Shown here: in pieces, positions 19,910-59,640 of the stretch
How positions within the stretch are numbered: position 1 is the first letter of the stretch
Layout of the letters: each line of letters opens with the position of its first letter
Source: Procambarus clarkii
Taxonomy: Eukaryota; Arthropoda; Malacostraca; Decapoda; Cambaridae
Assembly: GCF_040958095.1 (NCBI RefSeq)
Contig: NC_091193.1
Location: 25,689,832 to 25,753,831 of the forward strand
DNA length: 64,000 bases
Reading direction: 5' to 3'
The notes under the pieces: model-generated
Seen by the model: only the letters and a program-made list of their open reading frames with translations
Databases searched by the model: none
Told to the model about the DNA's origin: nothing
Made by a program: the position numbers and the translations under genes

Positions 19910-19962
19910 CGGCAACAACAACAACAAAAGAGCCCATAGCTAAGAAGGCGAAGAGTGGAGAG

Positions 19963-20657: not shown

Positions 20658-20659
20658 CC

Positions 20660-20875: not shown

Positions 20876-20897
20876 ATGAATGTATTGCAGTGTCATG

Positions 20898-21964: not shown

Positions 21965-21970
21965 ACGCTC
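21965..21970. other. Polinton target site duplication, right copy (ACGCTC)
   Basis: ACGCTC directly after the terminal CACTACT; identical to 5954-5959. Confidence 0.9.
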
Positions 21971-24417: not shown

Positions 24418-27400
24418 CTAAATATCACCAAGGATGCCAATATGAGAACAAAAACGCATAAGGCGAACGATATCAAAAGTATCCAAGTCACCAAGAATTC
24501 TATTGAGGGACAGGTGACCGCGAGGGGCGGTCGGAAAGCAAGACACATGCTCGTCCTGGAAGTCAGGATATTCAAGAAGGACATGCACGACTGTAAGAGG
24601 GACAATGCAACTAGGACAATAAGGAGCAGGGCGGCGCTCCATCAAGTGACCATGGGTTAAGCGAGCATGGCCAATATGCAACCTCGCCAGAGCTGTTTCC
24701 CATCGCCGGTTATTGTGGTAGGAGGACGGCCACGAGGAAACACAACATTTAAGAATACATAGTTTGTTACCAGTAACAGACGACCAAGAAGCCTGCCAAC
24801 GGGTAAGAATGGAGGAATGGATAACCGGGTAAAAGTCGGAATATGGAATACCTTTACGAGAGATGGGACAAGAGCGGACAGCTTCCTTGGCGGCAGCATC
24901 CGCACGCTCATTTAAAGACACACCAATATGGCTGGGAACCCAACAAAACTCAACCGACTTAAATTTACTGTGGACAAGAAACAGCCAACGCTGGATCTCG
25001 ACAACCACTGGATGAACCGGATTAAAGGACCCGAGAGCCATGAGGGCACTACGAGAGTCAACAATAACTACAAAGGAAGACTGACAACGAGAAAGCAGGA
25101 GACGAAGAGCATAGAGAATAGCATAAAGCTCCGCTGTAAAGATGCTAGTCTCCGGAGGAAAGCGACACATATAAGTGCAATCAGGAAAAACAACAGAGTA
25201 GCCAACACCGTCCGCAGACTTAGACCCATCAGTGAAGACAGAAACGGAGCGGGAGTGAGAAGAAAAGTGCTCAAGGAAAAGGCGTTTTAGAACCGTAGGA
25301 GAGGTAAAAGCTTTAGTGATGCAGGTCAAGGATGTACAAAAGTGCGGAAGGGGGACTCTCCACGGGGGTAAAGAAGGAACAACACGAGGAGAAACATTAG
25401 AAACACGAACGGAAAGAGAATCCTGTAAGCGAGATAACCGGACAGAAAGAGGGAGGTGGTGAAGAGGAACAGGAACCGCAGGAGGGGTAAAAGTTAAAGC
25501 ACGACAGAGGCGAGAGGAAGGATGTTGTAAGGATCGCGCAAGATTGCGAAGACAGTAGCGATCACGGCGGTCCTGGAGAGACAGGAAGCCAGTGTCAACA
25601 TACAAGCTAAGGACGGGAGTCGAACGACAGGCACCAGAAATGAGGCGCCACCCAGTATGGTGCAAAGCATCAAGACGGCGAAGAGTAGAAGGAGAAGCAG
25701 ATGAGTAAGCAGGGCAACCATAATCGAGATTAGACAGGACGGGAGAGGAATGTAAAGCAAGGAGAGTGCGCCTATCTGCCCCCCAATAAGTATGGGACAA
25801 TACCCGAAGGAGGGCAAGGGCCTTAGAGCACTCAACACGGAGGTAAGAGATATGGGGAGACCAAGACAAACGAGTGTCAAGGAATAACCCCAAAAGCTTC
25901 GCTGAATCTTTGTACTCAAGGGGATGACCATAAAGCGACAAAGAGGGACGAAGAACGACCCGTTTCCTAGTAAAATACATGGCACAAGTCTTAGAAGTAC
26001 AGAACTTAAAGCCATGATCGATGGCCCAAGACGACACGGCATCAATCGCAAATTGAAGCCGGCGCTGAAAGAGAGGCGAATCATCACCCTAACAGCAAAG
26101 GGTAAGATCATCAACATAGAGAGCGGAGAAGACACCTGAAGGAAGAGAGGAAAGAAGACCATTGAGGGCAACCAGAAAAATAGTAGTGCTCAGAACACTA
26201 CCCTGGGGCACACCTTCATACTGCTGAAAAGAGGGAGGAACGACGAGAGAGGAAGCTGCGGAGAAAGAGAGGGAGATGACCACGAAGGCCAAAAGAATGA
26301 AGCTGGAACAGAATATAATATCGCCAAGTGGTGTCGTAAGCCTCTTCCAGGTCAAAAAGGACGGCAACAACAGAGGTCCTCGCAGCAAAAGCAGTACGAA
26401 TATAGACCTCCAAGTTCACCAGGACATCTGTCGTGCTGCGGCACTTGCGGAAACCAAATTGAGAAGGGGAGAGGAGGTGATGTTGTTCCAGGAACCACAT
26501 CAGACGAACGTTAACCATACGTTCAAAGAGTTTGCAGACACAACTTGTGAGAGCAATAGGGCGAAAGTCCTTAGGGGAAGTACCCAGAGACCCCGGTTTG
26601 CGAACAGGGAGGACAACGGCATCGAGCCAGTCCTCAGGGACTGACGACGACTCCCAGATCCGATTATACAGACTCGGTAAATACCGAGACGTGCTCGGAG
26701 GGAGATGGCAAAGCATCTCATAATGAATACCATCGGAGCCCGCCGCCGTAGAACCGCAGAGGGCCAGGGCAGAACGAAGTTCAGAGAGAGAGAAGGGATC
26801 GTTATAGGAAAGTCGAAGACGAGTGCAGAAATTTAAAGGACGAGACTCAAGGACAGGTTTACGATGAAGGAAAGATTGGGGAAGATGAAGACCAGAGCTA
26901 ACAGAAGAAAAGTGAGAACCTAGTTCGGTAGCGACCTGCAACGGGTCCACCACAAGAGTACCACGGAGGTGAAGGACCGGGGAAACATCGGGAAAGAACT
27001 TACCCGCTATCTTGCGGATACGCTTCCAGATCTGTGACAGGGGGAGTTTTGGACGTAATTGTGGAGACATAAGAAGTCCAACATTCACGTTTAGCCATAC
27101 GGATGGCCCTACAGGCCACCGCACTCGCTTTCCATAAGAAAAGAAAAGAATCAGTCGTCTGCCGACGGCGGTGCCTCTTCCAGGCTGCACGCTTACAGCG
27201 GACAGCCCGAGCACAGTCCGCATTCCACCAAGGAACGCACTTCCGTGGACCCCGAGAGGAAGAGCGAGGAATAGAGCAGAGGGCAGCGTCGAAGACAGTG
27301 TCATGAAAAAGGAGGAGAGCGCGAGGGAGAGGCAGAAGGAAGAGGTCAGAGAGAGCAGCACTGAGGGTAAATAGGTTCCAGTCCGCCTTAGCAAACTGCC

Positions 27401-28119
27401 ACCTAGGAAAAGAGAGGGAAGGGCGAAACGAGAAAAAGGAAACAAGGATGGGGAAATGATCACTGCCATGGAGGTCATCAAGAATCTGCCACGTGAAATC
27501 TAAGTAAAGAGAAGAAGAGCAGAGAGAAAGATCAAGACAGGAAAGGGTGCGAGTCTGAGAGTCCAAATGAGTGGGCCCACCAGAATTCAGAAGAGACAGG
27601 GAAGAAGAGAGGAGAAACGGCTCAAGAAGGCGACCCCGGGTATTCGTCAGAACATCACCCCAAAGAGAATGACGACAATTGAAGTCACCCAGCAGGAGCA
27701 CAGGCTCGGCAAGGAGTCTAAGAGGTGTTTCAAATCAGGAAGAGAAAGCGGGACACTCGGGGGGGAGATAAATGGAACAAACTGTGTACCATTTCCCCAC
27801 AAAGATACGAGCAGCAGAACAATGGAGAGGCAAAGGAAAAAGTAAAGGAACAAAGGGAACATCAGCACGGATCAAGAGAGCAGAAGAATTAGGAGCCCCA
27901 GCAACAGCTGGGGGGGGGGGGGAAGAGAAAGGAATAGCCACGAAAATGACCAGAACGAGCACCAAGCATCGGCTCCTGGAGACAGACACAAAGGGGCGAA
28001 AACCGCGAAATCAGAAGTTGGAGTTCGAGGAAATTGGCATAATAACCTCGAACGTTCCATTGAAGAATAGACATCGACGAGAAGGGAAAGGACAACAACA
28101 GAGAACAAGGAAGAAACAA
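24418..28119 (-). pseudogene. LINE ORF2 (endonuclease, reverse transcriptase, RNase H), broken
   Basis: An AP-type endonuclease starts at 28119 (SILQWNVRG, then LQE), has GDFNCRH near 27690 and GSDHFPI near 27460. RT follows, with FRPIALTS near 26540, FGFRKCRSTTD near 26460 and the YVDD box near 26110. RNase H at about 25242-24880 has FTDGSKS, ETSIFTAELYAI, VDSRSAL and WVPSHIGVSLNERAD. A C/H-rich tail follows. Frame changes near 27911 (a G12 run on the plus strand), 27480, 26230 and 26090 inactivate it. Catalytic residues are otherwise preserved, so decay is recent. Confidence 0.88.
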
Positions 28120-28369
28120 AGGCGAAAGAGCAACACAGCACGTTAAAGAATATCAGGGTCAGCAAAGTCAGGGTTAGGGGGCATGGGTAAACTGAGCAAA
28201 GACGGAGGAAGGAAGCGGGAGAACAGACCAGAGGTGGGTGGGCGGGGTCCAGAGGAGGAGGAAGAGGAGACAACGGAGAGGAGCAGTCAAGGACAGCAGC
28301 AGGAAGAGGGGGAGTAGAAAGAGGGGAGCGCACCCCAGCAAGAGCAGCAACCGAAAGGGAAGCAGGGGC

Positions 28370-30081
28370 CAAAGAAACCTCCATAGCAGGAACAGGGGGC
28401 GCAAGCACAGAAATGGGAGGGAAAGAACCAACAGAGCCAGAAGTAGGAGCTGAGGAAGAAAGCGAAGCCTTCTTACCCGCCGGGGAGGAGGAAGGAGAGG
28501 AGCCAGGCTTACGCTTCTGACTTAGAGACCGGTGTCCCAGCAACTACGTACCGGGCAACAGATTACAGGGTCTCAACAGGAGAAGCTGAACGAGAGCACA
28601 CGACGGCCGTTAGGAGAGCGATGGACAACCGCCTGGACCGACAGGCGGCGGGGAGAGCCAATAGATGGAGGAAGAGGATGGGAAGGAGGATCGGAGGGAG
28701 ACGAGGAAGAAGACACAGGAGACACGACAGACCGGGTAGAAGGAAGGGGAACCCCAGACAGAGGACCAGGAGGGTGGACCCTTCGGGACAGAACTCAAAG
28801 GAACAGAGGAGGGGGCAGTGGGCATATCAGGGTCCAAGGCCCGGAAACGGTTGTGAGTCTGAGGAAGGAGGGAAGGACGAGGAGAGGAAGAGCGCAACAC
28901 GCGAGCATAAGAGACCTTAGCATAAGGCGGGAGCTGGCGAACCTGGCGCCTCGCCTCAGGAAAAGATAAACGCTCCCGGTGCTTCAAGTTGAGGACGGTC
29001 GCTTCAAGCTTGTAATGGATACAGGCACAGGAGAAGGTAAGATGGGCCTCACCGCAGTTGAGGCAGCGAGCTTGGGGAGAAGTGCACTCCGACTTAGAGT
29101 GACCTTCACCCCCACACAAAGGACAGAGAGAGACAGTCCCAGAGCAGCGGAGGGCACCATGCCCAAACCTCCAGCACTTGTTACAAAGCCGAGGAGAAGG
29201 AATATACTCCTGGACAGAGCACCTAGCACCATCAAGAATGACAGAGGATGGAAGGGTCCTACCATCAAAGGTGATCTTCACAACACGAAGGGTTGACGGC
29301 GACGACCACGAGGGGGACAAGTAAACGAGTCAACCTGGAGGACAGAGTGGCCTTGGGCATCAAGGATATGCCGAATATCATCGTGGCAATCCTGCAGATT
29401 CCGAACACCGGTTGCAACATGGGGCGGGAGGAGAATAGTGCCAACACTGGCATTCATCTGAACGTTCTTGGAGACCTGAACAGGGATCTCGCCAAGGCAA
29501 GATAAGGCAGCCAAATGGGAAGCTGCATCCTGAGAAGGAGCAGCAACGACACGTGTAACGAGACGAGTGGGGTTGAAGGTAACAGACGCATCCACGGAAT
29601 CAACAAGATGCCGATGGAGGGAGAAATCCTCAGGAGGCGCAGAATCAAGAGGGAGGAGATCAAAGTATTTGGCCCATGAAGCGGGACCAAACAAGGCCTG
29701 ATACACGGCAGTACGGGAAGGAGTCGAGCGAGTGCGGCCGGGGCGCGGACGGTGTTGAGAACCCCCAGAGAGAGAGAGGTCAAAAGGCGCAGTAGTCACA
29801 ACGAGAGACTTAGCCGCACCAGGGGACGAAGTGGTCACCACTGGAGGCTCGACCCAACCACAGAGGAGGGAGGGGAGCTGAGGGAAGAAGTCAGGACGGT
29901 CAAAGGAGGAGCAAGGTCGGGGCCCAACGCAGCAGGAGCTACAGAGCCCGGTCTTCCAATACAGGCCGACTCGGGGACTTGGTCGCCCACCCCACAAGCC
30001 TGAGAGGGTACAACGGAAACATTTATCGACAGAGACGAAGAGAAAGAAATTCATCCACGAATGTGCCCCCACACCCACCAT
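28370..30081 (-). pseudogene. LINE ORF1 (gag-like, three CCHC zinc knuckles), broken
   Basis: An RNA-binding protein of the retrotransposon. The N-terminal part is at 30081-29278. A frame change near 29300 leads to the CCHC region at about 29190-29050 (C-NKC-WRFGHGALRC, CPLCGGEGHSKSEC, CLNCGEAHLTFSC). A Ser/Pro-rich basic tail follows in a further frame, with KRKPGSSPSSSPAGKK near 28510. At least two frame changes break the gene. Domain order is normal for ORF1 of this group. Confidence 0.8.
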
Positions 30082-30563
30082 GGAGCCACAATTAGAGGCA
30101 GGACACCCAACAGGAAGCTATCGCTGATCATGCCGGGGCCCCCTACGGGTGCGTCGTGAGTATACGCCCCACAAACGCCACCTTAAGAACTGTCAGTCCG
30201 TCGAGATCGGGTTCAGCGACGAAAGGGGGATTGACAATAAAAGGTTCCCCTCGCTCGAGACGTCGGGTACAACAGTTCTACGGGTGCAAGAGTATGCCTC
30301 CTCAAGCACCCGGGCGTCAAAATAGAAGTCCAAAGAAAGATCCAAAACAAGCAGAAGGTCGGCAGGAAACGACAAGCAGATAGGAGAAGAGGGGGGAGAA
30401 AAACGAAACAAAAGGAAAAGGTGCTCAGCACAATTGGAGAGGACGGCAGCAGGAGCACAAGGCTAGAAAAGGACAGAGGACTATTCCAAGGAGCATCACA
30501 CTCCGGCAGCCGCCCACTAAGCCCCCCTCACGGCATCAACGAGTTGAGCGGAGAGGGGGGGGG

Positions 30564-32560: not shown

Positions 32561-33586
32561 TCCGTCTTACTTATACTCGCATTTGGGTGAGATGATATGG
32601 TGCAACAGTTTTGGATGAGGTGAACAAACTTGTGACAAATACAAGACTGAACACGAAACTATAGGTATTAATTGGATATGAGAGCATAAGAATGGAAGTA
32701 AGTGTAGAGGGCCTATTGGCCCATACTTCCTCTTGATGCTTCTATATTGGTTCGGAGTCTTGAAGTGGGTAGAATATAGAATATAGGTCCCCCCCCCCTC
32801 CCCCACCTCCAGAGGACAGCGTCGGGAGGGGGGCCGCCACGCGTGGTCTTACACACAACAACACAGAGTAACCTCACTCTCTGGTCGACATGTCCAGCTC
32901 TCAAATACTTTCCACTAGCGTCGACAAAGGAACCAGTGAGTCGCCGATCAACCAGTGATCCTGCTAATCTTGGGAGGTATTGTTCCCGGAAACATTGAAT
33001 TGCATTATGTACATTGATGGCCATTAATTGTATGTACACATTTTACTTGTTATGATGCCTGAACAACACCCGGAATGTGTTGTATTGAATATTCTAATTC
33101 AATATAATCTTTCCCTGCTGTATGCTGAGTATTATAGTAGCAGTTCACTACTTTGAAGTTACTTGGCAGGTGCAGCCCAAGGGAAGATAAAATTACGAGT
33201 CGTCCTTGCGCAACAGGAAACTTTCACGATCACCAATAGGGCTTAACCACCGAGTCTTGCATAAGTGACTGAGGAATGTCCAGGGCCTATTACTAGGCTA
33301 TATACTACTTAACAGATAAGCAGTATATAGTATTATACTAATCAATTTTAGCTGTAGACTAACATTATAACCTATTATGTTCATCAGGTATTTGATTAAT
33401 AGGCTACGAACATATACCCTCAAATTATGTGAACAGGAAAACACATGGCAGGATAATCACAGAATATACTGTCCAATTTAAATTAATAATAAAATAACGT
33501 AAAATTAAGAATCTAATAATTTAATTAATAAATAAATTAACAAGTATAATTCTGCTGGGAAAATTCCCTACTCCTAGGGGGGGGGG
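32561..33586. other. Spacer with one short dispersed repeat
   Basis: At about 32675-32760 lies the segment AGAGGGCCTATTGGCCCATA, shared in form with TCAGAGGTCCTATTGGCCCA at about 47020 in the giant palindrome. The rest is AT-rich and non-coding. A homopolymer G run begins at 33579. Confidence 0.55.
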
Positions 33587-37093: not shown

Positions 37094-37945
37094 AAGTAAG
37101 TAATTGTCAAAAGAAGGCACCAAACCGGGATGGCTATGTAGCCTTCCCGGTTTGGCCGACACGGCATCAATCGCAAGTTGAAGCCGGCGTTGAAGGAGAG
37201 GCGAATCATCACCCTGACAGCAAAGGGTAAGATCATTGACAGAGAACAGAGAAGACGCCTGAAGGAAGAGAGGAAAGAAGACCATTGAGGGCAACCAGAA
37301 AAAGAGTAGTGCTCAGAACACTACCCTGGGGCACACCTTAGTATTGCTGAAAAGAGGCAGAGGGAGCGGTACCAAGCCTCACCACAGTGGAACGACGAGA
37401 GAGGAAGCTGCGGAGAAAGAGAGGGAGATGACCAAGAAGGCCAAAAGAATGAAGTTGAGATAGGATATGATATCGCCAAGTGGTGTTGTAAGCCTTTTCC
37501 AGGTCAAGAAGGACGGCAACAATGGAGGTCTTCGCAGCAAAAGCAGTACGAATATAGACCTCCAAGTTCACCAGGACATCTGTCGTGCTGCGGCACTTGC
37601 GGAAACCAAATTGAGAAGGGGAGAGGAGGTGATGGTGTTCCAGGAACCACATCAGACGAACGTTAACCATACGTTCAAAGAGTTTGTAGACACAAGTTGT
37701 GAGGGCAATAGGGCGAAAGTCCTTAGGGGATGTTCCCAGAGACCCCGGTTTGCGAACAGTCTCTGTATTTACCGAGTCTGTTAAATCGGATCTGGGAGTC
37801 TTCGTCGGACCCTGAGGACTGGCTCGATGCCATTGTCCTCCCTGTTCGAGGGAGACCCTGGTTTGCGAACAGGGAGGACAACGGCATCGAGTCAGTCCTC
37901 AGGGTCTGACGACGACTCCCAGATCCGATTTAACAGACTCACATT
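37094..37945 (-). pseudogene. Second, 5'-truncated copy of the minus-strand LINE
   Basis: Matches the 3' end (GTAAGTAATTGTCAAAAGAA) and the RT region of the LINE at 24340-30563, joined by an internal deletion. The RT part at 37670-37338 has MVNVRLMWFLEHHHLL, FGFRKCRSTTD and LLDLEKAYNTTW. It ends in a hairpin (37765-37940), where ~80 bp of the RT-upstream region is present twice in inverted orientation. Non-functional. Confidence 0.85.
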
Positions 37946-44413: not shown

Positions 44414-44833
44414 ACTGGAACAAGCAATATACGTGGGGTTTAAAACTGAATGTTTGGTGCATCAGACACGTGGGTAGCAGCTCCCTGCAGGCGCCCCCTT
44501 GCGTCAGTGAGGTAACATGGACTAAGGAAGGGCCTTCCCTCAGTAAGGTAACTATGGGTGGGAGAGTGAGCATCAATTCTTTCATCATTCAGTCATCCTG
44601 TGACGTGTGACAGCTTCACCTGCGGCAGGTGTGACCAGCCACGCCTCTCACCACACAATATGCCAATAAGTCTCATCAATGTTCTTAAAACCTTCATTAA
44701 GACTCGTCGTCCAGTTCCCAGAAGTTAGTTTACCCCGTCATTCTTCACTGAAGCAGACGACGGCCAGGACGTGATCCATTATGTCCCCCGCGTTCCTTCA
44801 CAGGGCGCTCCCCTGGCCCTTGTAGATACTCTC
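44414..44833. other. Spacer without recognised features
   Basis: Unique-looking, non-coding; links the 17-bp array to the 51-bp array. Confidence 0.4.
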
Positions 44834-45206
44834 ACTATGGCGGTGTGTCCACTCACAGGATGAGTGGCGCTGCCCAATACTGTCACTATGGCGGTGTGTC
44901 CACTCACAGGATGAGTGGCGCTGCCCAATACTGTCACTATGGCGGTGTGTCCACTCACAGGATGAGTGGCGCTGCCCAATACTGTCACTATGGCGGTGTG
45001 TCCACTCACAGGATGAGTGACGCTGCCCAATACTGTCACTATGGCGGTGTGTCCACTCACAGGATGAGTGGCGCTGCCCAATACTGTCACTATGGCGGTG
45101 TGTCCACTCACAGGATGAGTGGCGCTGCCCAATACTGTCACTATGGCGGTGTGTCCACTCACAGGATGAGTGGCGCTGCCCAATACTGTCACTATGGCGG
45201 TGTGTC
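44834..45206. repeat. 51-bp minisatellite, array 2 (left of palindrome)
   Basis: About 7.3 copies of the 51-bp unit, reverse complement relative to 196-1258. It is interrupted at 45206 by the palindromic element and continues in the same orientation at 58730. Confidence 0.96.
45201..45206. other. Palindrome target site duplication, left copy (TGTGTC)
   Basis: TGTGTC immediately before AGTAGTG. The same hexamer follows the element at 58730-58735. In the uninterrupted 51-bp unit this hexamer occurs once (GGCGGTGTGTCCACTC), so the second copy is a real duplication. Confidence 0.93.
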
Positions 45207-45222
45207 AGTAGTGGGAAATGGG

Positions 45223-45570
45223 GCGTAGACCGGCAATTTTGTTTTTTTCGACTGCCGGTCTACGCACCAGGTGCGTAGACCGGCAATTTTGTTTTTTTCG
45301 ACTGCCGGTCTACGCACCAGGTGCGTAGACCGGCAATTTTGTTTTTTTCGACTGCCGGTCTACGCACCAGGTGCGTAGACCGGCAATTTTGTTTTTTTTT
45401 CGACTGCCGGTCTACGCACCAGGTGCGTAGACCGGCAATTTTGTTTTTTCCGACTGCCGGTCTTCTCACCATGGGCGTAGACCGGCTATTTTGTTTTTTC
45501 CTATGCCGGTCTACGCACCCTGGGTTTTACGAACTTTTTTTCCACAGCCGGTCTACGCACCCTGGGTTTT
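45223..45570. repeat. Subterminal 50-bp hairpin array, left
   Basis: Units start at 45223, 45273, 45323 and 45373, then less regularly at about 45425 and 45475, with a last half near 45550. Each contains GCGTAGACCGGCA, a T-rich loop (GTTTTTTTCGAC) and TGCCGGTCTACGC, so each can fold into a 13-bp stem. Regularity decays inward. Mirrored at 58366-58713. Possible integrase, terminal-protein or replication binding sites. Confidence 0.92.
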
Positions 45571-45660
45571 CTCTATTCCACTTGCCTGGGGATTAAAAAG
45601 CCGGCCCCTGGCACACCCAAATTTCGTTACCCCAGTGACCCATGCAGAGGCATCGGTCAA

Positions 45661-46765
45661 TGACGTCATCAGCTAGCCAGTCTTCATCTTCCCTGAATAA
45701 GTCCATTTTCTGTTATAGTGTATTTATTCCCATTTTCAATATTTATAGTAAAGGGGGATTAAAAGGCCGCCTTCTGTCAAGCCTAATGTACAATGACGTC
45801 ATCCATTATAAGCTCGTTTTTCTCAATAAGGCATTTCCATTTTTCTAGGATCATTTCAAAGTTAAGATTTCAAATTAACACGAGAAATGAGTTCAGCTCT
45901 GTCACCAAAGGAGTATTTGCCCAGGTCTTTTTCCTAAATCTAAAACTTATTCCAATTTATACCCATTGTTTCGTATTATATCTCGTGTTTATAGCCTATT
46001 AATATCCCCCTTTATCATGTCCATTCTTTAGCACCTCTATCATGTCACCCCTATTTGTTCTTCGTCTATCTAGAGAATGTAATTTAAGCTTTGTCCATCT
46101 TTCTTCAAGGATCGTTTATTGAGCATAGGGCAAATAAAATTGAAAACCCACTATCATCCATTGGTATGAAAACAGTCCCCTGCCAGGCGTAGTGACTTCA
46201 ATGCGATTTCAGTACTAATCCAATATTACTGTATAAACTAACAGTACCCTGCCAGGCATGGAGACTTCAATGCCATTTCAGTACTAATCCAACATTGCTG
46301 TATAAACTAACAGTCCCCTGCCAGGCATGGTGACTTCAATGAAAAGCAAGCCTCTCATGTTTTTGAAATAAAGCCTTCGTTTCTGACGTCATCATCCCTA
46401 ATGTGGCGCGAGGCGCGCTAAATGCGGATCCCAGGAGGTTCACACATAAGTGTGAACTCTTAATCAGGCTTAATACCTCACCTATACTCTATGCTTCATC
46501 AGAGTTGATATTCAGCTACAATAGCTCGTATTTTCGCTCATTACTTATATTTTCTGTTATTCATAAACCCGATCAAACCTTCCTAACCTAACCTAACCTA
46601 ACATATTATTTATAACAAACAAATACATTCTACAGAACAGTTATTGTTGTTGTTTAGTGACATCGTGAAAAGCGACCTCAGGTATAGGGACAATGTATTG
46701 ATGGTCATTAGCATATAGGTGTGAAGGTATTACAGTACCTTACTGGTCAACTATGTATGACGTCA
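45661..46765. promoter_or_regulatory. Cluster of four TGACGTCA (CRE) octamers, left arm
   Basis: Perfect TGACGTCA palindromes at 45661-45668, 45794-45801, 46384-46391 and 46758-46765. The right arm carries the same four at 58268-58275, 58135-58142, 57545-57552 and 57171-57178. TGACGTCA is the consensus for CREB/ATF bZIP proteins; function here is inferred. Confidence 0.6.
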
Positions 46766-47549
46766 CCAGACAACCAATGCGACCTTTGGCGTCCTACTGG
46801 CATGAGTATTTGATGTTATTATTCAAAAATGACTAGACTATCCATCCCCACCTAACCTAATCAGAGGTATAAGAATATACATTTTAGTCATCCACAACTG
46901 TAATCATTATTCAGTGATAAGTTCAAAAGTATAACAGAAGCCCAAATATCATACTGCAATTTAAGCAGAATCGTACATCTGGCAGCATAGCAGGTGAGCT
47001 GAACATAAGAATAAAGGTAACTTCAGAGGTCCTATTGGCCCATACGAGGCAGCTCCTATATATTTCCACCCAATCTCATTCATGTCCACCCTATGCTTAA
47101 AACAACCAAGGGATCCCACTTAAAGTATTAGTTTACAATAATAGTTTTAATAAATAGCTCTTATTCTAGTTTTATATACAACAGCAATTATAAAACCCTA
47201 TAGCTAGATATTCTACTCTAATCCACAAGTAGTTACCACACATCTGGCAGTACAGCGGATTAGTGGCTGTGTTCATAGGCTAGTCAACTGTCCTCACATC
47301 CATCAAATAGATATCCAAATATCGCACCTCAATTCATCCATCTAGCAACTCAGCTGGATGTTAGCCACTATATTCATAGGCTAATCATTTCTACACCTCA
47401 AAAAATCCTAGTCTTGCTGCGCAAATCAGCTAACTTGTTTCTAAACCAACACTCGCAAATACAATCATGCATACCTACACATACTTCAAAACCTATGCAT
47501 TCATAGAGAATAGCCTAGTTTTTTGCCGCCATTTCCCCATTAATCAGAT

Positions 47550-48640
47550 GTAATTTATGCCATACACACAGAAAATACAGCATTTACACACCAAATATGC
47601 CATTTATGCACAAAATATATTATTTACACTCAAAATATACCATCACATAAAAAAATATGAGATTTTCATACAAAATATGTCAGTTGCAAACAAAAATATA
47701 CCATTTACACAATATTGCATGTACACTCAGAGTATGACATTTACACAAAGTACGGTATTTTGCACAAATATATCAAAATGCTTATGCATTTAGACAATAA
47801 AAAATGCACTTTAACTAAAATTACACAATTTCACAAACGTAATTTTCACAAAATACCCACACATTGTCTCATAAACCAAAATACACTTACACCATAAAGA
47901 TCTATTTTATCAAATTACAGAGCTTACACAAAATACACAATTTTCACACACAAATACAGTTTCACCAGTTACACTTCAACATATTAAAAACACAACTTGC
48001 ATAAATGCACTATTATCACAAAAATTATTACACAGTTTGTGTAATTATTTTACATCTTTGCACAATTAATACAAGAAAACTTGCTATATAATTACTCAGC
48101 TTGCACAATGACAATCAATACCCAAAGGTATAAATAAACAATTCGTCCATATGCAATTACACAACATGCGCAATTAATACACAACTTATACAATATTACA
48201 CATCTTTATTACACACAACTTGCACAAATGCATATCTAGCACAAATACGTGCAATACATAACTACCCCAAATATGAAAATACACAACTAGCATAAATACA
48301 CGATTTACACAAATACAATTGCGACATTTACACAACTTGCTCAAAAATATAATCAATACACAACTTACCAAAATATGAACAATACATAACTAGCACATAT
48401 TCATTAAATCCACAACTATGCAATTTCCGCAAATACACATACAAAAACATATACAATTAATACATACAACTTGCACAAAACAATACACAATTTATAGAAA
48501 TATAATCAATACATAATTTCAATAATCATACAACATATGCAAAATACATAATCTGCACAATTAATACACAAGTATATTAATTGTGCTATATATGTACAAA
48601 CACAACCAACTGGGTCAAATAATACACAATTTGCATGATA
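47550..48640. repeat. AC-rich degenerate low-complexity region, left arm
   Basis: Dense short words such as TACACAA, TTGCACAAA, AATACACAA and CAATTAATACA repeated without strict period. Mirrored as TGTGTAA/TTGTGCA words at 55010-56390. No ORF. Confidence 0.75.
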
Positions 48641-49239
48641 TTTTTCTGGGTATATTTAGGACATTAATTATAATATGCTGAGTTTAACCAACTCCCCAAA
48701 AGTCAGAATTTCACATATAAAAATGTTTCTTATAACTTCCAATGAGCTCAATATATAACACATTCTTTTCCATTAAGATATCAACATTATTAGTGCTAAA
48801 CTATTCATCTAACATATGTCCACTGTTTTTATGTCTTATTAATACCTTCCTTGTTACATTCTCTCCAATCAGACCACCATATTTATGTATTTATTCAAAC
48901 CATCTAACAGACTTATTTGTTCTAGCCTTAGTTATGTTAGGGCAGGTGGGGTTAGGTTCGAGTCAGTATTTTCTATGATAATTTTAGACAAATTTGCTAT
49001 ATCTTATCAAAATGCATCTTGTTAAAACTTAAATTCATCTAAATCTATCAAAAATATACTTATACTACGCAAATTTGACTAAATTCAACCTAGCTAAACT
49101 TACTAAATATGAGCATCCCATATCCTCACATACAAGCCTATGTCGCCTCTGTCCATACATTTTATGAGTCTGCCATATAGCTCGAACCCCAAATAGGAAA
49201 ATTTTCACTATTTCTTAAACATACTAGTTCATTACCCTA

Positions 49240-50920
49240 AGATATTATATATGTCCTTCCCTACACGACCTCACCTAACCTGACCTGGCATAGTCAAACC
49301 TAGATTTAGTTCAAGTTGGTGAAATTTAAGCTATGCCACTTTAATTCGACATAATTTATGGCAATTTCCACCAAATATACCCAAATGTTGCGTAGCATAG
49401 CACTGCCAAAGCCCATTTCCTCCTATTCCATACTATCCTACACAACCTCCCCTAACCTGACCTAGCATATCCAAACCTGGATTTGGTTAAAGTTGGCGAA
49501 ATTTATGCTATGCCGCCTAAATATGGTCTAATTTAAGGCAATTTCCACCAAATATACCCAAATGTTGTGTATCATAGCATCACCAAAGCCCATTTTTACC
49601 TACATTTTCTCCTATTCCATCCTACCCTACACAACCTCACCTAACCTATCCTAGCATATCCAAACCTGGATTTGGTTAAAGTCTGCGAAATTTAAGCTAT
49701 CCCACATAAATACAACCTAATTTAAGGAAATTCCCACCAAATATCCCCAAATGTTTCGTATCACAGCACTGCCAAAGCCCATTTTTACCTACATTTTCTC
49801 CTATTCCATCCTACCCTATGCAACCTTACCTAACCTATCCTACCATATCCAAACCTAGATTTGGTTAGAGTTGGCGAAATTTAAGCTATCCCACCTAAAT
49901 TCTATCTAATTTAAGGCAATTCCCACCAAATATATCCAATGTTCTGTATCACAGCACTGCCAAAGCCCATTTTTACCTACATTTTCTCCTATACCATCCT
50001 ACCCTACGCAACCTCACCTAACCTATCCTAGCATATCCAAACCTAGATTTGGTTAAAGTAGGCGAAATTTAAGTTATCCCATATAAATTTGACCTAATTT
50101 AAGACAATTTCCACCAAATATACCCAAAAATGTTTTGGAACATAGCACGGCCAAAGCTCATTTAGCTGAGTTTTCACCTATTCCAACCTGCCCTAGACAA
50201 CCCTACCCATCCTCTCCTGGCATATCCAAAGTCAGATTTGATTATAGTTGGCGAAATTTATGCCTTTCCAACCTAAATTTTACCTAATTTAAGCCAATTT
50301 CCACCGAATATACCCAAATGTTTTGTATCTAGCATAGTCAAAGTTTATTTTAGCTGAGTTTTCGCCTATTCCAACCTGCCCTAGACATCCCTACCCGGCC
50401 TCTCCTGGCATATCCAAAGTCAGATTTGATTATAGTTGGCAAAATTTATGCCTTTCCCACCTAAATTTTACCTAATTTATGCCAATTTCCACCGAATATA
50501 CCCAAATGTTTTGTATCTTAGCATGGTCAAAGTTCATTTCACCCAAGTTTTTCACCTATTCCATCTTACCTTACACAGCCTTACCTAACCTGACCTAGCA
50601 TATCCCAAGCTAGATTTGATTAGAGTTCGTGAAATTTATGCTTACTCACCTAAATTCAACCTAATTTAAGAAAATTTCTACCAATATACCCAAAATGATT
50701 TGTTACATAGCTCAGCCAAAGACCATTTTACCCGAGTTTTCACATATTCCAACCTACCCTACATAGCCTTACCTATCCCTGACCTAGCAGATTTGATTAA
50801 AGTTGGGGAAATGTAAGCTATCGCCATCAAATTGGAGACAATTTCCACCAAATATGCCTAAATGTTGTGTATCATAGCACAGCCAAAAACCCATTTTACC
50901 CACATTTTCATCCATTCCAT
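49240..50920. repeat. ~175-bp degenerate satellite in the left arm
   Basis: About nine to ten diverged tandem units, each with CACCTAACCT(A/G), CATATCCAAACCTGGATTTG-like, GGCGAAATTTAAGCTAT-like and CCACCAAATATACCCAAATG-like blocks. Divergence increases toward the loop. Mirrored at about 52750-54420. Confidence 0.85.
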
Positions 50921-51798
50921 CTGAACCTGGACCTAGCCTTTTATACTACATATACTCAGAGAAGTGATGTTTTTTGGATATGAACCTAAATGCCCGTGCC
51001 TAACCTGCAAGTCTTGGAGCTTTGTTGAATATTTTATCTATTTTTCTTCAAAAACTGAAGTTTTGGATATGAACCTATCCGCACTGTGCCTAACCTGCTA
51101 GATTCTTTGTTGAACATTGTAACCATATTCATAGAAAAGTGATGTTTTGGATATGGACCTAACAGACCCTCTCCTTTAAAACTTGGAACTGTGTTCAATA
51201 TTGTAGATATAGTGTTGGGTATGTGTTTTGTTTTTACACATCAACCCAACCGTCCTGGACCTAACCTCCCTTCATCTAACTTCAAATTTATCGTAAATAT
51301 GGAAGGACGTGTTGTTTGTGCATCAACCCAATCGTCCTTGACCTAACCTCCATTTATCAAACTTCAAATTTATCATAAATATGGGAGGACCGTGTTATTT
51401 GTGCATCAACCCACCCATCCTGGGCCTAACCTCCCTTTATCTAACTTCAAATTTATTGTATTTATGGGAAGAAGGTGTTGTTTATGCATCAACCCAACCG
51501 CCCTGGACCTAACCTCTGATACACGAATCTTGGTTCAACATTGCATCATACTCGTAGCATATTTTTTTCACATAATTCAACCATCCTCAACCTAGCCTCT
51601 ATTACCTGGGGGAGGGAGGTTAATGGAAAATATGATAATAATGGGAATTTTCTCTACATCAGTTCAACTTAACCATCCTTAACCTAACCTTAGTTAGAAA
51701 GGGACATAACTCACCAAAACTATTTAATTACCATTTACCTTATTTTCCTTATCCTAACCCATAACCAGAGGGTTTAGACCCCCCTTTACCTCGAAATT

Positions 51799-51870
51799 AG
51801 AGTACAGGGTTAAATTAGGGAATGTTAGGTTTATGTGTGAAAATATATTCCTACCTTAAATATATAGTAT
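51799..51870. other. Palindrome loop (72 bp)
   Basis: The only non-mirrored part of the element: AT-rich, from AGAGTACAGGGTTAAATTAG to TATATAGTAT. The arms join it directly (ACCTCGAAATT on the left, AATTTCGAGGT on the right). Confidence 0.9.
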
Positions 51871-54800
51871 AATTTCGAGGTAAAGGGGGGTCTAAACCCT
51901 CTGGTTATGGGTTAGGATAAGGAAAATAAGGTAAATGGTAATTAAATAGTTTTGGTGAGTTATGTCCCTTTCTAACTAAGGTTAGGTTAAGGATGGTTAA
52001 GTTGAACTGATGTAGAGAAAATTCCCATTATTATCATATTTTCCATTAACCTCCCTCCCCCAGGTAATAGAGGCTAGGTTGAGGATGGTTGAATTATGTG
52101 AAAAAAATATGCTACGAGTATGATGCAATGTTGAACCAAGATTCGTGTATCAGAGGTTAGGTCCAGGGCGGTTGGGTTGATGCATAAACAACACCTTCTT
52201 CCCATAAATACAATAAATTTGAAGTTAGATAAAGGGAGGTTAGGCCCAGGATGGGTGGGTTGATGCACAAATAACACGGTCCTCCCATATTTATGATAAA
52301 TTTGAAGTTTGATAAATGGAGGTTAGGTCAAGGACGATTGGGTTGATGCACAAACAACACGTCATTCCATATTTACGATAAATTTGAAGTTAGATGAAGG
52401 GAGGTTAGGTCCAGGACGGTTGGGTTGATGTGTAAAAACAAAACACATACCCAACACTATATCTACAATATTGAACACAGTTCCAAGTTTTAAAGGAGAG
52501 GGTCTGTTAGGTCCATATCCAAAACATCACTTTTCTATGAATATGGTTACAATGTTCAACAAAGAATCTAGCAGGTTAGGCACAGTGCGGATAGGTTCAT
52601 ATCCAAAACTTCAGTTTTTGAAGAAAAATAGATAAAATATTCAACAAAGCTCCAAGACTCTTGCAGGTTAGGCACGGGCATTTAGGTTCATATCCAAAAA
52701 ACATCACTTCTCTGAGTATATGTAGTATAAAAGGCTAGGTCCAGGTTCAGATGGAATGGATGAAAATGTGGGTAAAATGGGTTTTTGGCTGTGCTATGAT
52801 ACACAACATTTAGGCATATTTGGTGGAAATTGTCTCCAATTTGATGGCGATAGCTTACATTTCCCCAACTTTAATCAAATCTGCTAGGTCAGGGATAGGT
52901 AAGGCTATGTAGGGTAGGTTGGAATATGTGAAAACTCGGGTAAAATGGTCTTTGGCTGAGCTATGTAACAAATCATTTTGGGTATATTGGTAGAAATTTT
53001 CTTAAATTAGGTTGAATTTAGGTGAGTAAGCATAAATTTCACGAACTCTAATCAAATCTAGCTTGGGATATGCTAGGTCAGGTTAGGTAAGGCTGTGTAA
53101 GGTAAGATGGAATAGGTGAAAAACTTGGGTGAAATGAACTTTGACCATGCTAAGATACAAAACATTTGGGTATATTCGGTGGAAATTGGCATAAATTAGG
53201 TAAAATTTAGGTGGGAAAGGCATAAATTTTGCCAACTATAATCAAATCTGACTTTGGATATGCCAGGAGAGGCCGGGTAGGGATGTCTAGGGCAGGTTGG
53301 AATAGGCGAAAACTCAGCTAAAATAAACTTTGACTATGCTAGATACAAAACATTTGGGTATATTCGGTGGAAATTGGCTTAAATTAGGTAAAATTTAGGT
53401 TGGAAAGGCATAAATTTCGCCAACTATAATCAAATCTGACTTTGGATATGCCAGGAGAGGATGGGTAGGGTTGTCTAGGGCAGGTTGGAATAGGTGAAAA
53501 CTCAGCTAAATGAGCTTTGGCCGTGCTATGTTCCAAAACATTTTTGGGTATATTTGGTGGAAATTGTCTTAAATTAGGTCAAATTTATATGGGATAACTT
53601 AAATTTCGCCTACTTTAACCAAATCTAGGTTTGGATATGCTAGGATAGGTTAGGTGAGGTTGCGTAGGGTAGGATGGTATAGGAGAAAATGTAGGTAAAA
53701 ATGGGCTTTGGCAGTGCTGTGATACAGAACATTGGATATATTTGGTGGGAATTGCCTTAAATTAGATAGAATTTAGGTGGGATAGCTTAAATTTCGCCAA
53801 CTCTAACCAAATCTAGGTTTGGATATGGTAGGATAGGTTAGGTAAGGTTGCATAGGGTAGGATGGAATAGGAGAAAATGTAGGTAAAAATGGGCTTTGGC
53901 AGTGCTGTGATACGAAACATTTGGGGATATTTGGTGGGAATTTCCTTAAATTAGGTTGTATTTATGTGGGATAGCTTAAATTTCGCAGACTTTAACCAAA
54001 TCCAGGTTTGGATATGCTAGGATAGGTTAGGTGAGGTTGTGTAGGGTAGGATGGAATAGGAGAAAATGTAGGTAAAAATGGGCTTTGGTGATGCTATGAT
54101 ACACAACATTTGGGTATATTTGGTGGAAATTGCCTTAAATTAGACCATATTTAGGCGGCATAGCATAAATTTCGCCAACTTTAACCAAATCCAGGTTTGG
54201 ATATGCTAGGTCAGGTTAGGGGAGGTTGTGTAGGATAGTATGGAATAGGAGGAAATGGGCTTTGGCAGTGCTATGCTACGCAACATTTGGGTATATTTGG
54301 TGGAAATTGCCATAAATTATGTCGAATTAAAGTGGCATAGCTTAAATTTCACCAACTTGAACTAAATCTAGGTTTGATTATGCCAGGTCAGGTTAGGTGA
54401 GGTCGTGTAGGGAAGGTCATATATAATATCTTAGGGTAATGAACTAGTATGTTTAAGAAATAGTGAAAATTTTTCTATTTGGGGTTCGAGCTATATGGCA
54501 GACTCATAAAATGTATGGACAGAGGCGACATAGGCTTGTATGTGAGGATATGGGATGCTCATATTTAGTAAGTTTAGCTAGGTTGAATTTAGTCAAATTT
54601 GCGTAGTATAAGTATATTTTTGATAGATTTAGATGAATTTAAGTTTTAACAAGATGCATTTTGATAAGATATAGCAAATTTGTCTAAAATTATCATAGAA
54701 AATACTGACTCGAACCTAACCCCACCTGCCCTAACATAACTAAGGCTAGAACAAATAAGTCTGTTAGATGGTTTAAATAAATACATAAATATGGTGGTCT

Positions 54801-55581
54801 GATTGGAGAGAATGTAACAAGGAAGGTATTAATAAGACATAAAAATAGTGGACATATGTTACATGAATAGTTTAGCACTAATAATGTTGATATCTTAATG
54901 GAAAAAGAATGTGTTATATATTGAGCTTATTGGAAGTTATATGAACCATTTTTATATGTGAAATTCTGACTTTTGGGGAGTTGGTTAAACTTAGCATATT
55001 ATAATTAATGTCCTAAATATACCCAGAAAAATATCATGCAAATTGTGTATTGTTTGACCCAGTTGGTTGTGTTTGTACATATATAGCATAATTAATATAC
55101 TTGTGTATTAATTGTGCAGATTATGTATTTTGCATAAGTTGTATGATTATTGAAATTATGTATTGATTATATTTCTATAAATTGTGTATTGTTTTGTGCA
55201 AGTTGTATGTATTAATTGTATATGTTTTTGTATGTGTATTTGCGGAAATTGCATAGTTGTGTATTTAATGAATATGTGCTAGTTATGTATTGTTCATATT
55301 TTGGTAAGTTGTGTATTGATTATATTTTTGAGCAAGTTGTGTAAATGCCGCAATTGTATTTGTGTAAATCGTGTATTTATGCTAGTTGTGTATTTTCATA
55401 TTTGGGGTAGTTATGTATTGTACGTATTTGTGCTAGATATGCATTTGTGCAAGTTGTGTGTAATAATTATGAAAGATGTGTAATATTGTATAAGTTGTGT
55501 ATTAATTGTGCATGTTGTGTAATTGCATATGGACGAATTGTTTATTTATACCTTTGGGTATTGATTGTCATTGTGCAAGCT

Positions 55582-56098
55582 GAGTAATTATATAGCAAGT
55601 TTTCTTGTATTAATTGTGCAAAGATGTAAAATAATTACACAAACTGTGTAATAATTTTTGTGATAATAGTGCATTTATGCAAGTTGTGTTTAATTTGTTG
55701 AAGTGGAACTGGTGCAACTGTATTTGTGTGTGAAAATTGTGTATTTTGTGTAAGCTCTGTAATTTGATAAAATAGATCTTCATGGTGTAAGTGTATTTTG
55801 GTTTATGAGACAATGTGTGGGTATTTTGTGAAAATTACGGAGTAATTATATAGCAAGTTTTCTTGTATTAATTGTGCAAAGATGTAAAATAATTACACAA
55901 ACTGTGTAATAATTTTTGTGATAATAGTGCATTTATGCAAGTTGTGTTTTTAATATGTTGAAGTGGAACTGGTGCAACTGTATTTGTGTGTGAAAATTGT
56001 GTATTTTGTGTAAGCTCTGTAATTTGATAAAATAGATCTTCATGGTGTAAGTGTATTTTGGTTTATGAGACAATGTGTGGGTATTTTGTGAAAATTAC
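55582..56098. repeat. 258-bp tandem duplication unique to the right arm
   Basis: GAGTAATTATATAGCAAGTT begins at 55582 and again at 55840, and both copies end in GTGAAAATTACG. The matching part of the left arm (about 47840-48110) is single. The copies differ slightly (GTGTTTAATTTGTTG against GTGTTTTTAATATGTTG), so the duplication is not brand new. Confidence 0.9.
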
Positions 56099-58365
56099 GT
56101 TTGTGAAATTGTGTAATTTTAGTGAAAGAGCATTTTTGATTGTCTAAATGCATAAGCATTTTGATATATTTGTGCAAAATACCGTACTTTGTGTAAATGT
56201 CATACTCTGAGTGTACATGCAATATTGTGTAAATGGTATATTTTTGTTTGCAACTGACATATTTTGTATGAAAATCTCATATTTTTTATGTGATGGTATA
56301 TTTAGAGTGTAAATAATATATTTTGTGCATAAATGGCATATTTGGTGTGTAAATGCTGTATTTTCTGTGTGTATGGCATAAATTACATCTGATTAATGGG
56401 GAAATGGCGGCAAAAAACTAGGCTATTCTCTATGAATGCATAGGTTTTGAAGTATGTGTAGGTATGCATGATTGTATTTGCGAGTGTTGGTTTAGAAACA
56501 AGTTAGCTAATTTGCGTAGCAAGACTAGGATTTTTTGAGGTGTAGAAATGATTAGCCTATGAATATAGTGGCTAACATCCAGCTGAGTTGCTAGATGGAT
56601 GAATTGAGGTGCGATATTTGGATATCTATTTGATGGATGTGAGGACAGTTGACTAGCCTATGAACACAGCCACTAATCCGCTGTACTGCCAGATGTGTGG
56701 TAACTACTTGTGGATTAGAGTAGAATATCTAGCTATAGGGTTTTATAATTGCTGTTGTATATAAAACTAGAATAAGAGCTATTTATTAAAACTATTATTG
56801 TAAACTAATACTTTAAGTGGGATCCCTTGGTTGTTTTAAGCATAGGGTGGACATGAATGAGATTGGGTGGAAATATATAGGAGCTGCCTCGTATGGGCCA
56901 ATAGGACCTCTGAAGTTACCTTTATTCTTATGTTCAGCTCACCTGCTATGCTGCCAGATGTACGATTCTGCTTAAATTGCAGTATGATATTTGGGCTTCT
57001 GTTATACTTTTGAACTTATCACTGAATAATGATTACAGTTGTGGATGACTAAAATGTATATTCTTATACCTCTGATTAGGTTAGGTGGGGATGGATAGTC
57101 TAGTCATTTTTGAATAATAACATCAAATACTCATGCCAGTAGGACGCCAAAGGTCGCATTGGTTGTCTGGTGACGTCATACATAGTTGACCAGTAAGGTA
57201 CTGTAATACCTTCACACCTATATGCTAATGACCATCAATACATTGTCCCTATACCTGAGGTCGCTTTTCACGATGTCACTAAACAACAACAATAACTGTT
57301 CTGTAGAATGTATTTGTTTGTTATAAATAATATGTTAGGTTAGGTTAGGTTAGGAAGGTTTGATCGGGTTTATGAATAACAGAAAATATAAGTAATGAGC
57401 GAAAATACGAGCTATTGTAGCTGAATATCAACTCTGATGAAGCATAGAGTATAGGTGAGGTATTAAGCCTGATTAAGAGTTCACACTTATGTGTGAACCT
57501 CCTGGGATCCGCATTTAGCGCGCCTCGCGCCACATTAGGGATGATGACGTCAGAAACGAAGGCTTTATTTCAAAAACATGAGAGGCTTGCTTTTCATTGA
57601 AGTCACCATGCCTGGCAGGGGACTGTTAGTTTATACAGCAATGTTGGATTAGTACTGAAATGGCATTGAAGTCTCCATGCCTGGCAGGGTACTGTTAGTT
57701 TATACAGTAATATTGGATTAGTACTGAAATCGCATTGAAGTCACTACGCCTGGCAGGGGACTGTTTTCATACCAATGGATGATAGTGGGTTTTCAATTTT
57801 ATTTGCCCTATGCTCAATAAACGATCCTTGAAGAAAGATGGACAAAGCTTAAATTACATTCTCTAGATAGACGAAGAACAAATAGGGGTGACATGATAGA
57901 GGTGCTAAAGAATGGACATGATAAAGGGGGATATTAATAGGCTATAAACACGAGATATAATACGAAACAATGGGTATAAATTGGAATAAGTTTTAGATTT
58001 AGGAAAAAGACCTGGGCAAATACTCCTTTGGTGACAGAGCTGAACTCATTTCTCGTGTTAATTTGAAATCTTAACTTTGAAATGATCCTAGAAAAATGGA
58101 AATGCCTTATTGAGAAAAACGAGCTTATAATGGATGACGTCATTGTACATTAGGCTTGACAGAAGGCGGCCTTTTAATCCCCCTTTACTATAAATATTGA
58201 AAATGGGAATAAATACACTATAACAGAAAATGGACTTATTCAGGGAAGATGAAGACTGGCTAGCTGATGACGTCATTGACCGATGCCTCTGCATGGGTCA
58301 CTGGGGTAACGAAATTTGGGTGTGCCAGGGGCCGGCTTTTTAATCCCCAGGCAAGTGGAATAGAG

Positions 58366-58713
58366 AAAACCCAGGGTGCGTAGACCGGCTGTGGAAAAAA
58401 AGTTCGTAAAACCCAGGGTGCGTAGACCGGCATAGGAAAAAACAAAATAGCCGGTCTACGCCCATGGTGAGAAGACCGGCAGTCGGAAAAAACAAAATTG
58501 CCGGTCTACGCACCTGGTGCGTAGACCGGCAGTCGAAAAAAAAACAAAATTGCCGGTCTACGCCCCTGGTGCGTAGACCGGCAGTCGAAAAAAACAAAAT
58601 TGCCGGTCTACGCACCTGGTGCGTAGACCGGCAGTCGAAAAAAACAAAATTGCCGGTCTACGCACCTGGTGCGTAGACCGGCAGTCGAAAAAAACAAAAT
58701 TGCCGGTCTACGC
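58366..58713. repeat. Subterminal 50-bp hairpin array, right
   Basis: Inverted counterpart of 45223-45570. Outer units are regular and inner ones decayed. One unit has CGCCCCTGG where the left arm has CGCACCAGG. Confidence 0.92.
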
Positions 58714-58729
58714 CCCATTTCCCACTACT

Positions 58730-58735
58730 TGTGTC
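58730..58735. other. Palindrome target site duplication, right copy (TGTGTC)
   Basis: TGTGTC directly after CACTACT; identical to 45201-45206. Confidence 0.93.
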
Positions 58736-59165
58736 CACTCACAGGATGAGTGGCGCTGCCCAATACTGTCACTATGGCGGTGTGGCCACTCACAGGATGA
58801 GTGACGCTGCCCAATACTGTCACTATGGCGGTGTGTCCACTCACAGGATGAGTGGCGCTGCCCAATACTGTCACTATGGCGGTGTGTCCACTCACAAGAT
58901 GAGTGGCGCTGCCCAATACTGTCACTATGGCGGTGTGTCCACTCACAGGATGAGTGACGCTGCCCAATACTGTCACTATGGCGGTGTGGCCACTCACAGG
59001 ATGAGTGACGCTGCCCAATACTGTCACTATGGCGGTGTGTCCACTCACAGGATGAGTGACGCTGCCCAATACTGTCACTATGGCGGTGTGGCCACTCACA
59101 GGATGAGTGACGCTGCCCAATACTGTCACTATGGCGGTGTGTCCACTCACAGGATGAGTGACGCT
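58730..59165. repeat. 51-bp minisatellite, array 3 (right of palindrome)
   Basis: About 8.5 copies in the same orientation as 44834-45206, with a TGTGTC/TGTGGC variant not seen in array 2. It is the continuation of the array that received the palindrome. Confidence 0.96.
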
Positions 59166-59640
59166 ACCCTCAGAGGGACGCTAGTCGCTAACACAATGTC
59201 TGTTTCAAAAGCCGCAGCTCCCATGATGTGTGGAAAGATATAGCGACCTTGAAGGTAAACCGATAATATGGAGTCGGGAGGCGGATACCAGGAGCTGCAG
59301 CTCCTGGTAAGTCACCACTCACTCTCCTCCACCTATAAACTATACCAGCCTCACAACATCGTTAACAACCTGTCTAGATAAACCCTAATATGCACATAAC
59401 AGCCAATTAGGACGACGATAATACGTAGTCATCAGGCAACGCTGAACCGCGTAGTTTGTCACTGAACTTTGACCTCTCGCTCTTGACCTTTGACCCCCCT
59501 CCCCCGTCCCGCTGACCCCCCCCCCACCTCTGACACCACTATGGAGGGAAATTTGACTTGAGCGAGTACATGCACCCAGCAGGAGGCACTAACGTGGGAG
59601 AGACTGTACTCGCCAAACACTTATGGTTAAAATTTTCATA
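59166..59640. other. Spacer without recognised features
   Basis: Non-coding. It contains a perfect 14-bp palindrome GGAGCTGCAGCTCC near 59292 and a C-run near 59515-59525. Confidence 0.4.

Follow-up and report, generated by a model that had tools for sequence, protein, structure and literature searches.

The 64,000 nt stretch of the Procambarus clarkii genome analysed here (contig NC_091193.1, positions 25,689,832 to 25,753,831 of the forward strand; hereafter the window) contains a 13523 bp palindrome at 45207–58729 which, judged from its sequence, is a non-autonomous Maverick (Polinton) made up almost entirely of terminal repeat. The limits of the element follow from self-comparison, from alignment of its arms and from the register of the target in which it lies.

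Self-comparison of the window confirmed the inverted match as two pairs, 45207–48097 against 55840–58729 (99.6 % identity) and 47838–55839 against its own complement (98.75 % identity), and alignment of the arms agrees with the near-perfect palindrome that an earlier note on this DNA had described. The left arm (45207–51798, plus strand) and the right arm (51871–58729, minus strand), as defined by self-comparison and global alignment, are 6.6–6.9 kb in length and enclose a loop of approximately 72 bp (51799–51870) that is not self-complementary. Outside this loop the global alignment displays 28 substitutions between the arms, plus a few indels. The greater length of the right arm is mainly accounted for by 258 bp and a further 7 bp, the former being one unit of a 260 bp tandem duplication (55582–56099, minus strand) present in two copies in the right arm versus one in the left. 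Tandem repeats of 189/377 bp occupy 49254–50775 in the left arm (plus strand) and 52882–54416 in the right (minus strand). The ends, as read, carry the terminal motifs AGTAGT (45207–45212, plus strand) and ACTACT (58724–58729, minus strand). Comparison of tip stems places a subterminal hairpin, with a 17 bp stem containing one mismatch and a T-rich loop, at 45219–45269 (plus strand), with its counterpart at 58667–58717 (minus strand), and a tandem repeat search finds about six tandem copies of a 50 bp hairpin unit at 45223–45519 (plus strand) and tandem hairpin units at 58417–58716 (minus strand). Examination of open reading frames and Rfam families revealed no gene-like content in the arm, as the note had likewise stated: the longest stop-to-stop frame fully within an arm is 105 amino acids and is located in the terminal hairpin repeats, the longest elsewhere is 82 amino acids, and an Rfam scan of the arm returned no family at gathering score.

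Both ends of the palindrome abut a copy of TGTGTC (45201–45206 and 58730–58735), and these 6 bp duplications, identified by reading the ends, lie within a 51 bp minisatellite whose left and right parts are at 44826–45206 and 58730–59169. The flanking arrays are in direct orientation, and when the insert and one TGTGTC are removed in silico the 51 bp register returns, with agreement at 129/131 positions. The direct flanks, the duplication and the restored register bear out the view that this is an inserted unit and not a chromosome foldback, and on the basis of the last two a chromosomal inverted duplication was rejected, with only one copy of the family (C35, below) departing from this pattern.

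Vertebrate Mavericks generate 6 bp duplications, and their commonest end motif is (AGT)2//(ACT)2 (PMC8097293); the AGTAGT//ACTACT tips and the TGTGTC duplication of the window palindrome agree with this motif and this duplication length. Ten opposite-facing pairs of similar tips were fetched from the genome, of which seven are palindromic along the greater part of their length (C1276, C52, C80, C35, C21, C72 and C29, the last with an insertion in one arm) and three are Mavericks with internal genes and terminal repeats of 1.3–1.7 kb (C11, C16 and C211). The terminal motif is off by one base in C21 and at one end each of C72 and C11. Open frames of C16 include a PolB of 1292 amino acids and an integrase with chromodomain of 369 amino acids, the latter matching a protein of Procambarus clarkii at 98 % identity over 89 %. 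All three Mavericks contain sequence homologous to the outer palindrome arm, at 88–95 % identity, with alignable blocks starting at arm positions 267–416, the tip region either differing or being repeated. Across arm positions 430–760, each of the six Maverick ends is within 1.2–2.3 % of some palindrome end; palindrome C80 is outlying here, at 7.5 % from its nearest.

The extent of this homology differs between the two ends of a Maverick. At the end remote from the polymerase gene, the match stops at arm position 1677 in 3/3 Mavericks, which is the limit of the terminal repeat, so that arm positions 1–1677 (45207–46883, plus strand) constitute the part homologous to a coding-Maverick terminal inverted repeat. 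The polymerase-side ends match the arm further, to 1781, 1796 and 1796 (104–119 bp extra, again in 3/3), and this sequence beyond the terminal repeat, common only to the polymerase-side ends of C11, C16 and C211, is at 46884–47002 (plus strand) and, by arm symmetry, at 56934–57052 (minus strand). That the additional match is confined to the polymerase side argues that both palindrome ends derive from one Maverick end, an origin that would hold unless the Mavericks acquired the polymerase-side piece from palindromes. Near the joint with the remainder of the arm, 47001–47045 displays an 82 % match to window positions 32682–32726, and is perhaps an interspersed repeat.

The inner arm (47003–51798, plus strand) is the gene-less core shared by the palindrome family. 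A low-stringency comparison of these 4.8 kb with the interiors of the three Mavericks gave no match past arm position 1800. Searches with tblastn for Maverick genes in the arms found none at E 0.01 amongst the 14 halves of seven palindromes, and comparison of the window arm with Maverick proteins returned best hits of only E 0.10 or worse. The palindrome thus has no PolB, integrase, ATPase, protease or capsid genes of its own, and is therefore a non-autonomous derivative and not an autonomous member of the Maverick/Polinton group, whose defining genes are carried by its partner elements. The unmatched inner arm would also suit an unrelated foldback-type element, or a new superfamily of DNA transposons, that resembles Mavericks at the tips only; however, the homology spans kilobases of each end, well beyond the tips, and hairpin classes are common to palindromes and Mavericks, leaving such an origin very improbable.

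With regard to insertion sites, perfect 6 bp duplications flank 12 of the 13 palindromes whose two ends were read, the window copy included. Besides TGTGTC in the window, these are GAGAGG (C1276), CACGTG (C52), CACACA (C80), CAGGTG (C29), GACAGC (C38), CCCAAA (C63), TACCCA (C54) and CACTAG (C50), together with ACTATT (C21), CACGCT (C72) and TTCCTT (C29:38.6 Mb), which were read by eye. Additional copies that share the tips and likewise have 6 bp duplications, for which the earlier note had proposed a search, are therefore present in the same genome. All four coding Mavericks that were read display such duplications as well, namely ACGCTC for one in the window (described below), CAGGTC for C11, TGAGTG for C16 and GTCTTC for C211. 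A tandem array adjoins 8 of the first 12 insertions, against a random background of 13.6 % of bases (binomial P 3e-5; the background being a small control of twenty random 1 kb stretches, and an array on either side counting as yes), and 12/19 when seven more palindromes are added. The array is on one side only for C21, C29 and n13, whilst n29 (C29:38.6 Mb), with a 261 bp duplication on one side, was scored as having no array. In the later set, 5/9 palindromes had no tip pair within the fetched stretches, and for n9 (C9) and n13 (C13) one side was fetched. Maverick-type insertions hence seem to prefer tandem arrays or minisatellites. The window itself is rich in minisatellite arrays, commonly with periods of 17–51 bp; the 51 bp family recurs at its start (197–1256), inverted with respect to 44826–45206, and Maverick C16, on a different contig (L045/L046), has inserted into an array of it as well.

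The size of the palindrome family was gauged in a single assembly of 4.03 Gb, with search scoring restricted to the 40 best candidates. The arm tip (45207–46000) returned 56 matches, and many of the best 40, which were scored, form opposite pairs 10–20 kb apart. For a query from the centre (51000–51870), the best 40 places, window included, are all 97–100 % identical, and for an arm piece (47400–48300) the best 40 are all 98–100 % identical. Amongst the best 40 centres, a second inverted arm of at least 560 bp is present in 32 and one of 250–480 bp in three, with less than 100 bp or none in the other five. The loop 34-mer, which represents one per element, occurs 494 times genome-wide at up to three mismatches (241 forward, 253 reverse; reversed control 0). 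A figure of about 500 is a rough count of centres, because the arms were checked for part of the loops and C1276, C52 and C21 lack the loop; these three have lost the old centre and possess single-sided loops of 265, 1518 and 1092 bases, respectively. Measured lengths of 13 palindromes are 10.8–15.5 kb. The insertion in the right arm of C29 is approximately 2.5 kb (L022:2548-4574), with weak reverse transcriptase and GIY-YIG matches under Pfam cut-offs, and is perhaps Penelope-like. Transcription across the 6.6 kb inverted repeat would yield double-stranded RNA, and the outer portion of the repeat shares homology with the Maverick terminal repeat, such that the main role of the palindromes could be to supply hairpin RNA feeding small RNAs against Mavericks, in host defence or interference. 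The high number of very similar copies instead speaks for a successful parasite, and we consider the hairpin RNA role improbable.

The tips of these elements share a structure more than a sequence. A hairpin with a 12–18 bp stem and a T-rich loop, starting at base 12–18 from the element end, is present in 34 tips belonging to 18 elements (the three Mavericks as well as palindromes), and its inner stem arm takes 13 distinct forms. For each tip the stem is the best one found, so that pairing is partly by construction (C29_R and M211_R being off register by 1–2 bases), and because of this selection chance stems are the proper control: the observed minimum stem score is 10, whereas 300 shuffles of the window tip reached 8 at most. 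In 15 distinct rows, 160/165 inner pairs are Watson–Crick, whereas shuffling the 3′ arms among rows gives 66 on average and never more than 119; this statistic is descriptive, given the relatedness of the rows and a slight register shift in two of them. Every pair position of the stem displays at least three Watson–Crick types. On these comparisons, the stem sequence is seen to vary between tip classes with its pairing apparently kept.

Tip classes cross the boundary between palindromes and Mavericks. Class A comprises six palindromes and Maverick C11, and class B palindromes C29 and C72 together with Mavericks C16 and C211. The class of C13 is also found on C54:358-373 kb (97–98 %) and C50:28.96-28.97 Mb (86–89 %), the middles of which have PolB, ATPase and integrase matches, some in more than one frame. 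Both ends belong to the same class in 13/13 palindromes with both ends read. The copies C29:38.6 Mb and C13 have near-identical cores (inner arms 0.44 % apart, or 99.56 % alike, over 5.2 kb) and unrelated tips, each tip standing on both ends of its element. Different tips on near-identical cores, matched at both ends, thus indicate that a tip change reaches both ends. For C16 and the C50 Maverick, which are of different tip classes, the similarity is 92–95 % for the integrase and for a 171-residue stretch of PolB, and from this comparison stem sequence seems to change more rapidly than integrase and PolB.

Helper-driven foldback replication of a non-autonomous Maverick is probably the best explanation for these features, albeit not by a wide measure of confidence. 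In such a process, a Maverick end would first have been fused with other DNA of about 4.8 kb, after which a replicating strand would fold back and copy itself, yielding a dimer in head-to-head orientation whose two ends are both functional. Helper Mavericks would provide a protein-primed polymerase and an integrase in trans, the palindrome presumably being replicated by its partners' PolB. A displaced palindrome strand would become a single long hairpin, needing no partner strand because the folded hairpin holds a complete origin, and repair or renewed foldback copying within it would make the arms alike in each cycle. One arm could recombine with another Maverick lineage, and hairpin copying would carry the new tip to the opposite end. 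Finally, the integrase would insert the palindrome, often into minisatellites. A broader proposal, which we put forward tentatively and as the less likely side of the balance, is that of a self-complementary satellite of virus-like Mavericks: its single strands would be complete replicons, it may outcopy its helpers and travel in their capsids, it would switch helper through a tip taken on one arm and copied to the other, and recognition of its hairpins would depend on their shape, not their sequence.

Within a copy, the two arms generally resemble each other more closely than they resemble the arms of any other copy. Sister arms were nearest each other in 31/33 tests, performed on six segments along the arm in eight copies (arms covering <80 % of a segment were excluded, and 33 of 48 possible pairs were tested), with the nearest other copy 1.1–8.0 % distant. 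There are only 3 differences in 7136 sites between the sister arms of C1276 and 2 in 6568 sites between those of C29:38.6 Mb. The chief rival to foldback replication is that the element is a non-autonomous Maverick in which post-insertion gene conversion maintains the similarity of the arms, as happens in long palindromes of chromosomes, and it is here that the first of several observations weighing against foldback replication belongs. Arm differences are clustered in 5/8 copies tested (window, C21, C35, C29 and C72). In the window, 26/28 fall within the 1.9 kb of 47419–49293, with near-identical tracts on either side (p < 0.0005 in a separate alignment, in which 29 differences were counted), and this cluster fits patchy post-insertion conversion as well as incomplete copying before insertion. 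In C21 the clustering is mostly in the first 500 bp, and in C35, C29 and C72 it is partly in tandem repeats, possibly aligned out of register. The other 3/8 copies, with few differences (0.04–0.37 %), show no significant clustering (C1276, p 0.84; C52, 0.18; C80, 0.07), which speaks against conversion. Furthermore, matched tip classes on near-identical cores at different loci need a step that spreads with transposition. The short terminal repeats of the window Maverick are also alike, though conversion could produce that too. Conversion as the whole explanation is consequently rated as rather unlikely, although in the patchy window copy both conversion and replication copying may be visible.

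Also to be set against foldback replication are the two failed segment tests, C72 at arm 1700–2250 (sister 1.27 % versus other copy 1.09 %) and C35 at arm 3300–4200 (1.56 % versus 1.22 %). The off-centre copies C1276, C52 and C21 give no support for snapback: the idea that they are fresh snapback events was dropped, as plain deletion across the centre explains them equally well, and no priming microhomology was seen at C1276. A search for the origin of the 4.8 kb inner sequence gave no source, the best 40 places in the genome all being close family matches. Helper action in trans is suggested by the sharing of ends, and all of the evidence comes from one assembly. Lastly, C35 is without a direct duplication, and both of its flanks are one 14 bp minisatellite in inverted orientation (L015/L016). 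This extension of inverted symmetry into host minisatellite would be in keeping with palindromes created by foldback reads during assembly or library preparation. Such reads would, however, be expected to make host flanks palindromic, which conflicts with the direct duplications of the other 12/13 copies and with the restored target register in the window; moreover, nearly all copies are in contigs of tens of megabases (that of C1276 is 44 kb). An artefact is accordingly judged highly unlikely.

In terms of classification, the earlier note had suggested a new class of giant non-autonomous palindromic element. The palindrome is indeed discrete, gene-less and transposed, but it is not a class apart, because its end motif, duplication length and outer arm are Maverick/Polinton-like; rather, it is a palindromic, non-autonomous branch of this known superfamily. 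It resembles Mavericks/Polintons (polintoviruses, adintoviruses) in its 6 bp duplications, (AGT)2//(ACT)2 ends, homologous terminal repeats and similar total length, and is unlike them in being gene-less and in having a terminal repeat of 6.6 kb that makes up the whole element, as compared with 46–1447 bp for the terminal repeats of vertebrate Mavericks (PMC8097293). Several other systems offer partial parallels. The foldback transposons FB and Galileo similarly have very long inverted repeats and are often non-autonomous, but belong to other superfamilies, with another duplication length and shorter arms; membership of that group is unlikely given the Maverick ends. Miniature inverted-repeat transposable elements are likewise non-autonomous and gene-less, with the ends of an autonomous partner, yet are far shorter and have arms that are not near-perfect over kilobases; at 13523 bp, in a family of 10.8–15.5 kb, the palindrome fails on shortness and this assignment was rejected. 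SYREC, the symmetric recombinant of adenovirus type 12, is reportedly a giant palindrome with one viral end at both termini and a non-viral interior. It would be alike in belonging to a protein-primed system and in having both termini from one end (in the crayfish, the polymerase side of Mavericks, 3/3), but is said to be a laboratory product found in virions, unlike the genomic family of hundreds described here. A defective genome of adeno-associated virus in snapback configuration has also been reported (PMC8235507), comparable as a defective snapback form, but from a small parvovirus genome and not an inherited transposon.

A coding Maverick of another lineage is situated 23 kb from the palindrome. 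This 16005 bp element (5960–21964, plus strand) is a Maverick/Polinton with the same AGTAGTG tips, and its ACGCTC duplication (5954–5959 and 21965–21970) is inside a 28 bp minisatellite. Self-comparison places its terminal inverted repeats, of about 1.06 kb, at 5960–7022 (plus strand) and 20906–21964 (minus strand); they are 99.2 % identical, with 0 mismatches and 8 gaps over 1065 columns. On the plus strand, it harbours DNA polymerase B (8764–12525; PF03175, 1253 amino acids), an A32-like packaging ATPase (12982–13677; PF04665), an integrase core (rve) with chromodomain (13659–14786), a major capsid protein candidate (17174–18502) and a weak Ulp1-like protease candidate under the Pfam cut-off (18503–19087). 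The capsid candidate, a 442 amino acid frame, has a jelly-roll fold in a model of modest confidence (mean predicted local distance difference test score 66.7) that matches jelly-roll capsid proteins of iridovirus, Paramecium bursaria Chlorella virus 1 (PBCV-1), Sputnik and mavirus; the frame itself aligns with a protein of Procambarus clarkii at 100 % identity over 93 %. When the palindrome was searched against the rest of the window, no match occurred in the terminal repeats of this Maverick, and comparison of tips showed that it lacks the subterminal hairpin; it is therefore of a different lineage from the palindrome, and was rejected as its direct helper. Elsewhere in the window, frames on the minus strand at 24418–30117, with reverse transcriptase, endonuclease and RNase H domains, are probably a non-LTR (long terminal repeat) retrotransposon, and a further reverse transcriptase frame is at 37338–37898.

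Instability is generally expected of long perfect palindromes, and because of this some 500 near-perfect, mobile and persisting palindromes of 11–15 kb are unexpected. A literature search, which covered few subscription journals, gave no phrase match for non-autonomous or derived Mavericks or Polintons, nothing joining Mavericks, long terminal inverted repeats and palindromes, and no title on palindromic Mavericks; in passages of decapod and crayfish repeat papers, Mavericks are mentioned only briefly. The family may be a naturally occurring record of foldback replication under protein priming, and the divergence between its arms may act as an insertion clock, in the manner of long terminal repeats. 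It also provides a natural set of terminal hairpins with which recognition by replication and integration proteins could be tested, and suggests that Mavericks have molecular parasites of their own.

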